Shown here in pieces: positions 31,125 to 52,004 of a stretch of 64,000 nucleotides of DNA. A program made the translations under genes and the position numbers. Position 1 is the first letter of the stretch. The number at the start of each line of letters is the position of its first letter. The notes under the pieces were generated by a model. That model did no database searches. It saw nothing but the letters and a program-made list of their open reading frames with translations, and was not told the DNA's origin. The DNA comes from Cryptosporangium arvum DSM 44712 (GTDB lineage: Bacteria > Actinomycetota > Actinomycetes > Mycobacteriales > Cryptosporangiaceae), in contig NZ_KK073874.1 in NCBI RefSeq assembly GCF_000585375.1, positions 5,177,251-5,241,250 on the forward strand, in the 5' to 3' direction.

Positions 31125-31171
31125 GACGGCCTCTCTCGATGTCGGTTCCGCTGAGACGTCGTCCGGCCCAC

Positions 31172-31201
31172 GTGACAGGGAACGAGGCGATTCCCTGTCA
31201 C
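31172..31201. promoter_or_regulatory. Inverted repeat GTGACAGGGAA-N8-TTCCCTGTCAC
   Basis: Perfect 11-base arms (31172-31182 and 31191-31201) with an eight-base spacer in the 127-base divergent region between the DUF998 gene and the DGPF/ECF42 operon. Size and spacing fit an operator for a dimeric regulator acting on one or both promoters. No such regulator is encoded next to it. Confidence 0.45.
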
Positions 31202-31251
31202 TTAGGCTGAGCGACGAGTGGGCAGAACCCGATCGACTCCGAGGAGATGCC

Positions 31252-31575
31252 ATGCGTTACCTGATGCTCACCAAGAACGACGGCCGCGAGCCCGACGCCC
31301 AGCTGTTCGCCGACATGGCGGCGTTCGTCGAGGAGCTCACCGCCTCCGGTGTCCTGCTCGCCACCGGCGGCCTCGACCCGGCCGGGCGGCGGATCGCGTC
31401 GTCCGGCGGCGAGGTCACGGTCACCGACGGCCCGTTCACCGAGGCGAAGGAGGCGGTGGGTGGCTTCGCGCTGATCGAGGTGCGGTCGGAGGAGGAGGCC
31501 CTCGAGCTCGCCCACCGGTTCCGCCGCGTCATCGGTGACGGTACGAGCCTGATGCACCAGGTCTTCGGTCCGTGA
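31252..31575 (+). CDS. DGPF/YCII-domain protein
   Basis: YCII-related protein of 107 residues with the hallmark DGPF motif (VTDGPFTEAKEAVGGF, about 61-76). DGPF proteins are the conserved partners of ECF42 sigma factors; their biochemical role is unknown, although related folds are small enzymes or ligand binders. GAGGAG lies just before the ATG at 31252. Its TGA overlaps the GTG of the sigma factor (GTGA), so the two are coupled. Confidence 0.93.
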   Translation: MRYLMLTKNDGREPDAQLFADMAAFVEELTASGVLLATGGLDPAGRRIASSGGEVTVTDGPFTEAKEAVGGFALIEVRSEEEALELAHRFRRVIGDGTSLMHQVFGP

Positions 31576-33482
31576 CCGACCTTCGCGGGACTCTCGACGC
31601 CGCGTGGCGCCGGGAGTCCGCGAAGATCATCGCCACGCTGACCCGGATGGTCGGCGACGTGGGCCTGGCCGAGGAACTCGCCCAGGACGCGCTGGTCGCC
31701 GCGCTCGAACAGTGGGGCGCGGCCGGCCCGCCGGAGAACCCCGGCGCCTGGCTCACCACGGTCGCCAAGCGCCGCGCGGTCGACCACCTCCGCCGCGCGC
31801 AGCGGGCCGAGCGGGCCTCCGGGGACGCCGCCCGCGAGGACGCCGCCCGGGAACCCGGCCGGCCCGACGACGTTCTCCGGCTGGTGTTCCTCACCTGCCA
31901 CCCGGCGCTACCCACCGAGGCCAGGGCGGCGCTCACCCTGCGCCTGGTCTGCGGCCTCTCCGCCGCCGAGATCGCCCGCGCTTTCCTCACCGACGAGCCC
32001 GCCACCGCCCGGCGGCTCGCCGCCGCGAAACGCACGCTGGCCGAGCGCCGGGTGCCCTTCGAACTCCCGGCGAACCCGCGGGAACGCCTCGCCGACGTCC
32101 TCGGCGTCGTGTATCTGGTCTTCAACGAGGGCTACTCCGCCACCTCCGGCGACGACCTGATCCGCCCCGGCCTGTGCCTCGAGGCGCTGCGGCTGGGGCG
32201 GCTGCTGGCCGGGCTCGCTCCCGGCGAGCCCGAGGTGCACGGCCTGGTCGCGCTGATGGAGTTGCAACAGTCGCGGTCGGCCGCCCGCACCGGCCCGGAC
32301 GGCGAGCCGGTGCCGCTGCACGAACAGAACCGCGGCCGCTGGGACCCGCTGCTGATCCGGCGCGGCTTCACCGCGATGCTGCGGGCCCGGGAGCTGGGCG
32401 GGCCACCAGGGCCGTACGTGCTGCAGGCCGCGATCGCGGTCTGCCACGCGCAGGCCCCCTCGGCCGACGAGACCGACTGGGACCGGATCGCGTCGCTCTA
32501 CGACGCGCTGGCCGGCGTCCTGCCCACGCCGATCGTGCGGCTGAACCGGGCCGTCGCGGTCGGCCGGGCACGCGGCCCGGCGGCCGGGCTGGCGGCCGTC
32601 GAACCGCTGCTCGCCGAGCCGCTGCTGAAGGACTACCACCTGCTGCCGGCCGTCCGCGCCGACCTGCTCGAACAGCTCGGGCGACCGGCCGAGGCCGGTG
32701 CGGAGTTCGGGCGGGCCGCCGCGCTCACCCGTAACGCGGCCGAGGCGGCCTTCCTGCGCCGCCGGGCCGCCGCCGTCGCGGCGCCGCCCGCCGGGGGCCT
32801 CGGGGCCGCCGCGGACCGGTTTCTCGCGCGGGGCTCGCTCACCGCGGCCACCCGCCGTTCCTACCGCCAGACCCTGCACCGGCTGCGGCTCGCGCTCGGC
32901 GATCACTTCCCGGTCGACGCCCTGCGCGCGGACACCGTGGCCCCGGTGTTCGCCCTGGCCTGGAGCACCGCGGCGGCGGCGACCTGGAACCGGCACCGGG
33001 CGGCCGTGCGTTCGTTCGGCGAGTGGGCCGGGCTCGGGGACCTCGGCGCCGACCTGGAGCGGCGCATCCCGGCACCGACCGTGCCGGACCGGCTGGACCT
33101 CGACGCGCTGTGGGCACGCACCGACGTGCCGCTGCGCGAGCGCACGCTCTGGCGGCTGCTCGCCGAGTCCGGCGCCCCGGTGACCACGGTCCTGGCCCTC
33201 GACGTCGGCGACCTTGACCTGGCCGAACGCCGGGCGCGGGCCGGTACCACCTGGGTGACCTGGCGTTCGGCGACCGCCGACCTGCTCCCCCGCCTGCTGG
33301 CCGGGCGCACCCGCGGCCCGGTGTTCCTCGCCGACCGCCGCCCGGTGCCGTCCCGGCCGGTCGCGGCGACCGACCTGTGCCCCGAGACCGGCCGCCGCCG
33401 CCTCTCCTACGAGCGCGCCGAGTACCTGTTCAAGCAGACGACCGGCACGACGCTGCGCCGCCTCAGAAGTGCGCCTTCCTGA
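31572..33482 (+). CDS. ECF42 sigma factor fused to a degenerate tyrosine-recombinase-like domain
   Basis: Alternative sigma factor of 636 residues, against about 400 for the group. Residues 1-400 are a normal ECF42 protein: sigma region 2 (GLAEELAQDALVAALEQW), region 4 (GLSAAEIARAFLTDEPATARRL) and the long helical TPR-like extension (VLGVVYLVFNEGYS, HEQNRGRWDP, YHLLPAVRADLLEQLGR). From residue 403 (base 32778) comes an extra part: an integrase-like core-binding region (LTAATRRSYRQTLHRLRLAL) and the start of a catalytic fold (LLAESGAPVTTVLALDVGDL, then GPVFLADRR, LSYERAEYLFKQTTG). The first catalytic Arg is replaced, and the protein ends at TLRRLRSAPS, before the His/Tyr positions. It cannot be an active recombinase. 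The 3' end overlaps the convergent gene by 20 bases. Confidence 0.9.
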   Translation: MTDLRGTLDAAWRRESAKIIATLTRMVGDVGLAEELAQDALVAALEQWGAAGPPENPGAWLTTVAKRRAVDHLRRAQRAERASGDAAREDAAREPGRPDDVLRLVFLTCHPALPTEARAALTLRLVCGLSAAEIARAFLTDEPATARRLAAAKRTLAERRVPFELPANPRERLADVLGVVYLVFNEGYSATSGDDLIRPGLCLEALRLGRLLAGLAPGEPEVHGLVALMELQQSRSAARTGPDGEPVPLHEQNRGRWDPLLIRRGFTAMLRARELGGPPGPYVLQAAIAVCHAQAPSADETDWDRIASLYDALAGVLPTPIVRLNRAVAVGRARGPAAGLAAVEPLLAEPLLKDYHLLPAVRADLLEQLGRPAEAGAEFGRAAALTRNAAEAAFLRRRAAAVAAPPAGGLGAAADRFLARGSLTAATRRSYRQTLHRLRLALGDHFPVDALRADTVAPVFALAWSTAAAATWNRHRAAVRSFGEWAGLGDLGADLERRIPAPTVPDRLDLDALWARTDVPLRERTLWRLLAESGAPVTTVLALDVGDLDLAERRARAGTTWVTWRSATADLLPRLLAGRTRGPVFLADRRPVPSRPVAATDLCPETGRRRLSYERAEYLFKQTTGTTLRRLRSAPS

Positions 33483-50820: not shown

Positions 50821-52004
50821 ACGTCCGGGACGCGCTCGACGCCGCCTACCGCGACGAGTGGGGCCAGGTCGTCGGCACGCTGATCGGGCTGACCCACGAC
50901 TGGGACCTGGCCGAGGACTGCGCGCAGGACGCGTTCGCCGCCGCGGTCGCCACCTGGCCGCGCGACGGGGTACCGGCCCGCCCGGGCGCCTGGCTGACGA
51001 CGGCCGCACGCAACCGCGCCCTCGACCGGCTGCGCCGCGACGCGGTCGGCACCGCGAAACTGCGCCAGCTCGCGCTCGTCGACGCCGGCCCCGAGCCGCA
51101 CGAGATCACCGACGAGCGGCTCCGGCTGATCTTCACCTGCTGCCACCCGGCGCTGCCGTTCGAGGCCCGGGTCGCGCTCACCCTGCGGACGCTCTGCGGC
51201 CTGAGCACGGCCGAGATCGCCCGGGCCCTGCTCACGACCGAGCCGACGATGGCCCAGCGGCTGGTGCGGGCCAAACGCAAGATCGCCGAGGCCGGTATCC
51301 CGTACCGCGTCCCGCCGGCCGAGCTGCTGCCGTCGCGGCTCGGGGCCGTCCTCGCCGTGCTCTACCTGATCTTCAACGCCGGTTACGACGGGCACCAGGA
51401 CCTGACCGGCGAGGCGATCCACCTGGCCCGGGTGCTGGCGCGGCTGCTGCCCGACGAGCCCGAACCGCGAGGGCTGCTCGCGCTGATGCTGTTCGGGGAG
51501 GCCCGGCGGGCCACCCGCGCCGAGGACGGCGTCCTGGTGCCGCTGGAGGAGCAGGACCGCGGCCGCTGGGACACCGCGCTGATCGCCGAAGCCGAGCAGC
51601 TCCTGGTGCACACGCTGGCCGCGAGGCGGGCCGGCCCGTACCAGGTGCAGGCCGCGATCGCCGCCTGCCACGCCACCGCGCCGGACGCGGCGAGCACCGA
51701 CTGGCCCCAGATCGCCGCGCTCTACACGCAGCTCGACCGGCTGACGCCGTCACCGGTCGTGGAACTGAACCGGGCCGTGGCGGTCGCGATGTCGGAGGGG
51801 ATCGCGGCCGGGCTGGCCCTGGTCGACGCGCTGGCGGCGTCCGGGCGGCTGGACGGCTACCACCTGCTGCCGGCGACGCGCGCGGACCTGCTGCGTCGCG
51901 ACGGGCGGTCCTCGGAGGCCCGGGAGGCCTACGAGCAGGCGCTTTCCCTCGCCCCGACCGAGGCCGAACGGCGCTACCTGACGCGCCGGAAAGAAAATCT
52001 CTGA
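50817..52004 (+). CDS. ECF42 sigma factor with TPR-like C-terminus
   Basis: Alternative sigma factor of 395 residues, standard length for ECF42. Sigma region 2 (DLAEDCAQDAFAAAVATWP), region 4 (GLSTAEIARALLTTEPTMAQRL) and the helical C-terminal extension (VLYLIFNAGYDG, EEQDRGRWDTALI, YHLLPATRADLLRRDGRSSEAREAYEQAL). The group has no anti-sigma; the C-terminus itself regulates. It ends at RRYLTRRKENL, which aligns with residue 400 of the fused protein at 31572 and marks where that fusion begins. Start GTG overlaps the DGPF stop. Confidence 0.95.
   Translation: MNVRDALDAAYRDEWGQVVGTLIGLTHDWDLAEDCAQDAFAAAVATWPRDGVPARPGAWLTTAARNRALDRLRRDAVGTAKLRQLALVDAGPEPHEITDERLRLIFTCCHPALPFEARVALTLRTLCGLSTAEIARALLTTEPTMAQRLVRAKRKIAEAGIPYRVPPAELLPSRLGAVLAVLYLIFNAGYDGHQDLTGEAIHLARVLARLLPDEPEPRGLLALMLFGEARRATRAEDGVLVPLEEQDRGRWDTALIAEAEQLLVHTLAARRAGPYQVQAAIAACHATAPDAASTDWPQIAALYTQLDRLTPSPVVELNRAVAVAMSEGIAAGLALVDALAASGRLDGYHLLPATRADLLRRDGRSSEAREAYEQALSLAPTEAERRYLTRRKENL

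Follow-up and report, generated by a model that had tools for sequence, protein, structure and literature searches.

What does a sigma factor do with the remains of a recombinase? The question is raised by one gene of Cryptosporangium arvum DSM 44712, which lies in a stretch of 64,000 nucleotides (contig NZ_KK073874.1, positions 5,177,251 to 5,241,250; hereafter the window). Its product starts as a sigma factor of the extracytoplasmic function (ECF) group ECF42 and runs on, in the same frame, into a module that resembles a tyrosine recombinase. A sequence-only reading of the window had proposed that an integrase remnant was recruited here as a DNA-targeting module, tying promoter choice to a DNA site. 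We hold it likely that the protein is an ECF42 factor with a captured, catalytically dead recombinase of plasmid type, which would read a half-site at the -35 of its own divergent promoters. On balance we also favour the view that the dead recombinase replaced the -35 recognition of sigma region 4, that a core-type site thereby became a bidirectional promoter, and that intermediates of this change survive.

The sigma part is that of an ECF42 protein, as the sequence-only reading had it. Pfam places Sigma70_r2 at residues 16-78, Sigma70_r4_2 at 106-156, DUF6596 at 172-272 and Phage_int_SAM_1 at 422-486, and finds regions 2 and 4 of the sigma70 type without region 3. The C-terminal extension of DUF6596 and helices like those of tetratricopeptide repeats (TPR) is present, with DUF6596 (PF20239), which we take to be the mark of ECF42, scoring 119 bits. 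The recombinase match is fainter: Phage_int_SAM_1 (PF02899) scores 21.8 bits on the whole protein, under the cut-off of 22.3, and 23.2 on the C-terminal part alone, and the catalytic half of the module has no match in the Pfam scan.

Structure prediction gave the integrase-like fold that had been suspected for the extra part. The AlphaFold2 model of residues 401-636 has a mean predicted local distance difference test score (pLDDT) of 94.7 and a predicted template modelling score of 0.74, and its Foldseek search of the PDB returned 22 matches at E<=0.001, every one a tyrosine recombinase. They include Xer proteins, Brujita Int, integron integrase, and, as the best ones, XerA, Tn1549 Int, lambda Int and Cre. 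With the full-length model nothing reached E<=0.001, the best match being Tn1549 Int at 1.1e-3. What is present is the core-binding domain and the first half only of the catalytic domain, and the residue set of an active tyrosine recombinase (R-I, K, HxxR, H/W, Y) is lacking in the fusions. Of the 93 fused rows in the alignment, 2 retain R-I, 2 retain K (87 have a gap in this column) and 6 retain the H of HxxR, and none retains H/W or the tyrosine.

Recurrence was analysed in two partly overlapping collections, with at least three proteins common to both: an order sample of 397 genomes (up to seven best first-look candidates scored per genome), and a second scan which found 232 relatives, the best 80 of which were analysed (the 80-locus set). 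In the order sample, 16 genomes have the domain almost complete, with 56% identity or more, and joined to sigma sequence. Besides the genome of the window itself, 14 have the same long fusion, and the fifteenth (G235) has the module on a sigma remnant. In the 80-locus set the fusion lies in a single frame in 77 loci; in L053 and L100 it is divided over two overlapping frames, by draft-assembly error or as a real split, and L060 has no intact front end. All fusions end at nearly the same place: 77 of the 78 fusions of this set with an LSYxRA motif stop 16-39 residues past it, where relatives read TLHQLRHS. The L060 frame continues past that point without the box, and the L114 fusion still reads HQLR right before its stop. 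The HxLRH box is absent from the last 130 residues in all 80 loci. A neighbouring gene as supplier of the missing catalytic box was rejected, as the motif H[QERSD]LR[HRL] was not found in any frame of the 600 nt downstream in the 80 loci and the window.

The fusion hosts include Streptomyces, Kitasatospora, Amycolatopsis, Saccharopolyspora, Nonomuraea, Streptosporangium, Microtetraspora, Actinoplanes and others. In a phylum-wide sample (six candidates scored per genome) the fusion is found in 2 of 396 genomes, that of the window and G737, and its distribution is therefore patchy. Fusions occur on plasmids as well; where a plasmid record gives a product name (four records), it is only RNA polymerase sigma factor. 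A phage origin was rejected, as a phage collection gave no match at E 1e-5 and plasmids carry intact integrases as well as fusions. The tree of the sigma part, with 92 fused and 33 non-fused ECF42 rows, unites the fused ones in a single clade (support 83). For the recombinase domain at the C-terminus, the first tree needed two changes for the fusion label; a tree with the fusions held together in one clade has the higher likelihood and is not rejected (approximately unbiased test, p 0.853).

We give almost no credence to the idea that the module is a functionless decaying integrase pseudogene attached to the sigma gene. It would account for the lost catalytic residues; it is refuted by the many invariant residues of the module across fusions and by the ratio of nonsynonymous to synonymous substitution (dN/dS) of about 0.3, and the confident fold and the single fused clade over many actinobacterial families also speak against it. 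Over 26 pairs, the median dN/dS of the module is 0.31 in the core-binding domain and 0.26 in the catalytic remnant, beside 0.25 in the sigma part and 0.17 in the TPR-like part; judged by these sequence comparisons the recombinase module is under purifying selection. The same ratios, the one-frame fusions and the common truncation point rule out a frameshifted or decaying neighbouring integrase gene; the homologues collected are conserved fusions.

If the module targets DNA, a site may be expected, and a candidate lies in the promoter of the fusion's own operon, where a recombinase-core-like inverted repeat is found; the DNA site foreseen by the sequence-only reading thus appears to exist. In 70 upstream regions (69 loci of the 80-locus set and the window), the word GACAGGGAA/TTCCCTGTC recurs, with 8-mers shared by up to 59 of the 70, where shuffles reach 8. 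The core consensus is TGTGACAGGGAA-N8-TTCCCTGTCACA, lox-like, and the longer one is ATGTGACAGGGAA-N8-TTCCCTGTCACAT. The copy in the window (31170-31203) matches the consensus except for the two outermost letters on either side. Two inverted arms of 11-13 bp around a spacer of 6-8 bp, beside the gene, make up a DNA site of recombinase type, and the repeat of the window has this form.

Within the order sample, the repeat is exclusive to fusion genomes. The pattern, with 5-11 nt between the arms, occurs at a single place in the 9.2-Mb genome of the window, and it occurs in 11 of the 397 order genomes, once in each, all of them among the 16 with the fusion; the other 381 have none (Fisher p 5e-18, relatedness ignored). 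A palindrome by chance was rejected, the reversed-pattern control giving 0 in the own genome and in all 397. As for the remaining five fusion genomes, G069, G110, G137 and G337 have a single half-site and G342 has a repeat with one mismatch. Two genomes of the same genus with only a stand-alone relative of the module have no repeat. With a repeat called at 17 or more matches of 22, it is present in 67 of 81 fusion loci (the 80 and the window), with a spacer of 8 nt in 53, 9 nt in 10, 10 nt in 3 and 12 nt in 1. The arms covary at the tenth position, with 6 loci in which both have changed (p 0.006), and at the third, with 1 such locus (p 0.045), the other positions being not significant; relatedness is ignored in these values, and the covariation is not relied on as support.

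The place of the repeat is that of a promoter element. From the end of the right arm to CGACG, or a one-letter variant of it, the distance is 10-11 nt in 66 of the 67 repeat loci, and a mirrored -10 stands left of the left arm in 60 of the 67. By motif, 55 loci have a divergent DUF998 (47) or DUF1801 (8) gene, and all of them have the mirrored -10; five further loci have it without a recognised divergent gene. The seven loci with neither a divergent gene nor a mirrored -10, which were chosen for having the repeat and fall in about three related groups (L100 being outside the tree), keep 12-13 of the 13 letters of the left arm. This conservation supports, but does not prove, that the palindrome itself is used.

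The target promoter of ECF42, reportedly described by Liu et al. in 2018, combines TGTCGA at -35 with CGA/TC at -10. In the window the -10 is present and the TGTCGA -35 is absent. The canonical element TGTCGA-N15-19-CG[AT][CT] is found in just 2 of 59 repeat-bearing upstream regions; at the -35 position, by the same measure, fusion promoters show the inner half-site end RTTCC and no TGTCGA. The comparison set of non-fused ECF42 proteins, taken with a looser pattern, has 33 rows from 32 genes (two rows are one gene), and 8 of its 33 upstream stretches have the element, with N17 in 7 of those 8; a narrow promoter pattern matched none of the 9 non-fused rows of the own genome. On this sample the element is supported in non-fused ECF42 factors, but not universal. 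Judged by its sequence and its gene neighbourhood, with the YCII (DGPF) gene adjoining it in the window and, by motif, in 71 loci of the 80-locus set, the fusion belongs with ECF42, and it departs from it in promoter type.

Such a promoter could also be read without the module. The repeat might be two back-to-back promoters for a re-specified sigma region 4, with the module as a protein-interaction scaffold, which we find quite improbable. The -10 on both sides in 60 of 67 repeats agrees with it, as do single half-sites with a -10 of their own. On the other hand, it does not fit a half-site whose conservation runs from the -35 position on into the promoter spacer, nor an inter-arm spacing of 8 nt in 53 of 67, and its region 4 should be re-specialised, which is not what is observed.

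ECF sigma factors are taken to read the -35 with region 4, the C-terminal helix of which contacts it. Residues 144 and 151 align to the C-terminal helix-turn-helix of region 4 in solved ECF factors. Residue 151 is R in 33 of 33 non-fused rows and in 7 of 92 fused rows, which otherwise have A, E, G, D and others there; residue 144 is T in 90% of the non-fused rows and spread over R, V, T, A and others in the fused ones. A first, stricter pattern for non-fused proteins gave 11, and R151 is invariant there too. These two residues have the greatest entropy excess in the fused set of all 382 columns (151 first, 144 second), in a set otherwise less variable than the non-fused one (median entropy difference -0.60). 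By parsimony, residue 144 takes 41 steps in the fused set vs 2 in the non-fused and residue 151 takes 37 vs 0, the top two of 382 columns, where the column means are 10.0 and 8.0. The -35-reading helix has, on these alignments, lost constraint in the fusions: it is variable, not re-specialised.

R151 is found in 0 of 65 repeat-bearing loci with a usable protein (80-locus set and window), and all seven fused proteins with R151 stand in early branches, outside a clade of 81 rows (support 86). Among the early branches, L104, L114 and L117 keep T144 and R151 together with a classical TGTCGA-N17-CGA promoter. Upstream of the classical -35, at a distance of 28-30 nt for the nearest, they have TTCCCTGTCACAT half-sites, one or two in number. 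To us this looks like an intermediate, in which an upstream anchor came first and the takeover of the -35 place later.

The same data bear on another reading, in which the module binds the repeat as an autorepressor, a signal causes its release, and the protein then acts as an ordinary sigma factor. The repeat does overlap the -35 and spacer region of both promoters, and a dead tyrosine recombinase that represses is known in MrpR (PMC10516654). A further point in its favour is the remnant fusion of G235 (L014/L037, G235:C29), an ORF of 375 residues with the module on a sigma remnant without region 2 and most of the TPR-like part, directly downstream of an inverted repeat of the same kind. Autorepression, however, leaves unexplained the loss of the conserved recognition-helix residues and the canonical element in only 2 of 59 repeat regions (though only 8 of 33 non-fused stretches have it), and the half-sites of L104, L114 and L117, 28-30 nt upstream of the -35, are in an activator-like place. 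We regard it as unlikely. The remnant of G235 is itself a natural candidate for a repressor-only version.

Where the module and its site may have come from is suggested by stand-alone relatives with HxxR, 14 in number (13 loci and WP_238587940.1 of the Rhodococcus plasmid pFAJ2600), of an actinobacterial 'site-specific integrase' family. Their domain is homologous to that of the fusions, about 38-51% identical where mostly aligned. Unlike the fusions, they have no sigma factor and keep the catalytic residues: all 13 aligned rows have R-I, K, and the H and R of HxxR, 11 have the next H and 12 have Y, and the pFAJ2600 integrase reads HQLRHS and ARYAN. In 8 of the 14, the stretch upstream of their own gene contains a similarly built inverted repeat, in which 11 or more of 12 arm positions pair and the spacer is 7 nt in place of 8; six of these eight beat the best of 60 shuffles. 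By path distance L146 is nearest to the fusions, and its repeat has the inner GGGAA/TTCCC in common with theirs. L021, second nearest together with L022, reads TGTGACACAGAA-N7-TTCTCTGTCATA, each arm agreeing with the fusion arm in 10 of 12 letters, though its own pairing (10 of 12) is no better than shuffles. Repeats beside relatives that have no fused sigma factor are a further difficulty for back-to-back promoters. Most likely, from this likeness, the fusion-promoter repeat is a core site of this recombinase family or an imitation of one, and the repeats of the stand-alone relatives would then be recombination sites. The likeness to these repeats, the -35 position of the site and the relaxed helix of region 4 all go beyond what the sequence-only reading had foreseen.

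Two side observations concern these relatives. By eye, L021, L146, L025 and L147 seem to have a third half-site near the start codon besides the inverted repeat. In addition, all four genomes of the same genus have a free-standing relative that lacks the lysine hairpin and all past the HxxR region (G000:C1:6646877-6647602, which is L002 and L033, and L004, L005 and L006), with no upstream repeat of 11 of 12 or better beside it; this is possibly a second dead-recombinase regulator.

For the captured recombinase as reader of the -35, we propose the following course. An ECF42 ancestor would have captured a plasmid-type site-specific tyrosine recombinase together with its type of core site, and the loss of its catalytic residues would have left a C-terminal DNA-reading module. 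The module is predicted to bind half-sites of 12-13 bp (TTCCCTGTCACAT). Two of these usually make up a lox/dif-like inverted repeat, with a spacer of 8 bp, placed between the divergent promoters of the YCII-sigma operon and the DUF998 (or DUF1801) gene. Bound at the half-site over the -35, it would anchor the sigma factor while region 2 opens the CGACG -10; region 4 would stay on core RNA polymerase but no longer read the -35 element. A paired site would let two molecules serve two divergent promoters, probably as a dimer on the lox-like palindrome. The inducing signal probably enters via the TPR-like part, as is proposed for ECF42, whose control is assigned to the TPR-rich extension (PMC8999054).

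The regulon of such a factor seems to be local. In the own genome the two halves of the repeat are the sole places where a half-site goes with a -10. A scan for TTCCCTGTC-N10-14-CGACG in 32 chosen genomes gave, in the 16 with the fusion, 19 matches at the fusion locus (12 genomes) and 3 elsewhere, and 8 matches in 7 of the 16 genomes without it. On these counts a larger regulon was rejected.

Several results weigh against this proposal. The paired repeat is absent in 14 of the 81 fusion loci, among which L061, L071, L077, L090 and L116 have the downstream half-site at normal spacing, L075, L098, L109 and L113 the divergent half-site only, and L060 and L064 neither in the stretch scanned; pairing of half-sites, by these sequences, is therefore not always needed. 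L061, L077 and L090, without a paired left arm, are sisters of loci with a left arm but no left -10. The word GACAGGGA or TCCCTGTC is also present in 2 of the 33 non-fused upstream stretches. L020/G266 has the repeat and R151 together, so the loss of R151 does not strictly follow the gain of the repeat. The early branches have weak supports (32, 63, 52), and evolution is faster in the core-binding part than in the sigma part. Among the stand-alone relatives, 6 of 14 have no repeat at 11 of 12 or better, and the repeats of L028 and L146 only tie with the best of 60 shuffles.

Known systems share parts of this arrangement. ECF42 factors, such as Sven_0747 of Streptomyces venezuelae, have the same layout of sigma regions 2 and 4 followed by DUF6596/TPR, the YCII (DGPF) gene upstream and the same -10 type; the fusion differs from them by about 230 added residues of dead recombinase, by the relaxed helix of region 4, and by a promoter with a recombinase-like inverted repeat instead of the classical -35. 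MrpR (YopR), the master repressor of Bacillus phage SPbeta, is a protein of tyrosine-recombinase fold that has lost catalysis and regulates transcription (PMC10516654). It is thus a dead recombinase serving as a regulator, as is predicted, with DNA binding, for the fusion module; in contrast, it is a stand-alone phage repressor that keeps Y304 and K169 with no sigma factor fused, and the fusion module lacks the tyrosine and the entire C-terminal end. Cre/lox and Xer/dif share the recombinase fold (Foldseek), and their sites have 11-13-bp arms around a short spacer, as here, but they are active recombinases and the fusion module is without the DNA-cutting residues. The literature search returned no report of a sigma factor-recombinase fusion; a mention in the main ECF classification or in the 2018 ECF42 paper is possible.

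The features of the locus are collected in Table 1. A convergent acetamidase/formamidase-like gene (PF03069) overlaps the fusion gene by 20 nt (33463-33482), 3' end on 3' end. The window holds a second ECF42 (DUF6596) gene at 51336-51611 on the plus strand, and the genome about 12 such loci, one of which is the fusion.

Table 1. Features of the fusion locus, in positions of the window
Feature	Position	Strand	Basis and remarks
Divergent DUF998 membrane-protein gene, 197 aa	30531..31124	-	PF06197, E 2.2e-26; common bidirectional promoter with the YCII-sigma operon
Mirrored -10-like CGACG of the divergent gene	31157..31161	-	
Left arm of inverted repeat, GTGACAGGGAA	31172..31182	+	
8-bp spacer of inverted repeat	31183..31190	.	
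Right arm of inverted repeat, TTCCCTGTCAC	31191..31201	+	5' end at the -35 position of the YCII-sigma promoter
-10-like CGACG of the YCII-sigma operon	31212..31216	+	
YCII (DGPF) protein gene, 107 aa	31252..31575	+	PF03795, E 7.9e-16; overlaps the start of the fusion gene
Fusion gene, 636 aa: ECF42 sigma factor with catalytically dead tyrosine-recombinase module	31572..33482	+	GTG start; open reading frame (ORF), Pfam, structure model
Sigma part, regions 2 and 4, residues 1-170	31572..32081	+	Pfam; aligned to the solved ECF factors SigL, SigH and SigK
Recognition-helix region of sigma region 4, residues 139-156	31986..32039	+	Residues 144 and 151 conserved in non-fused ECF42, variable in fusions
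ECF42 C-terminal extension (DUF6596 and TPR-like helices), residues 171-400	32082..32771	+	Pfam; modelled helices; TPR structure matches
Core-binding (SAM-like) domain of recombinase module, residues 407-500	32790..33071	+	Pfam PF02899; A1/A3 conservation; model
Truncated catalytic domain, residues 510-636	33099..33482	+	R-I and beta-hairpin lysine lost; stops at the HxxR place, before H/W and Tyr

On the whole, the sequence evidence points to a natural swap of -35 reading to an unrelated DNA-binding fold, with apparent intermediates in living species. If this is true, the enzyme of a mobile element can turn into a regulator and, along with it, its type of site into the promoter. It would also be a highly specific promoter system, with one repeat in each of 11 genomes, and of possible use in synthetic biology. 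For the poorly understood ECF42 group, the proposal offers a testable claim.

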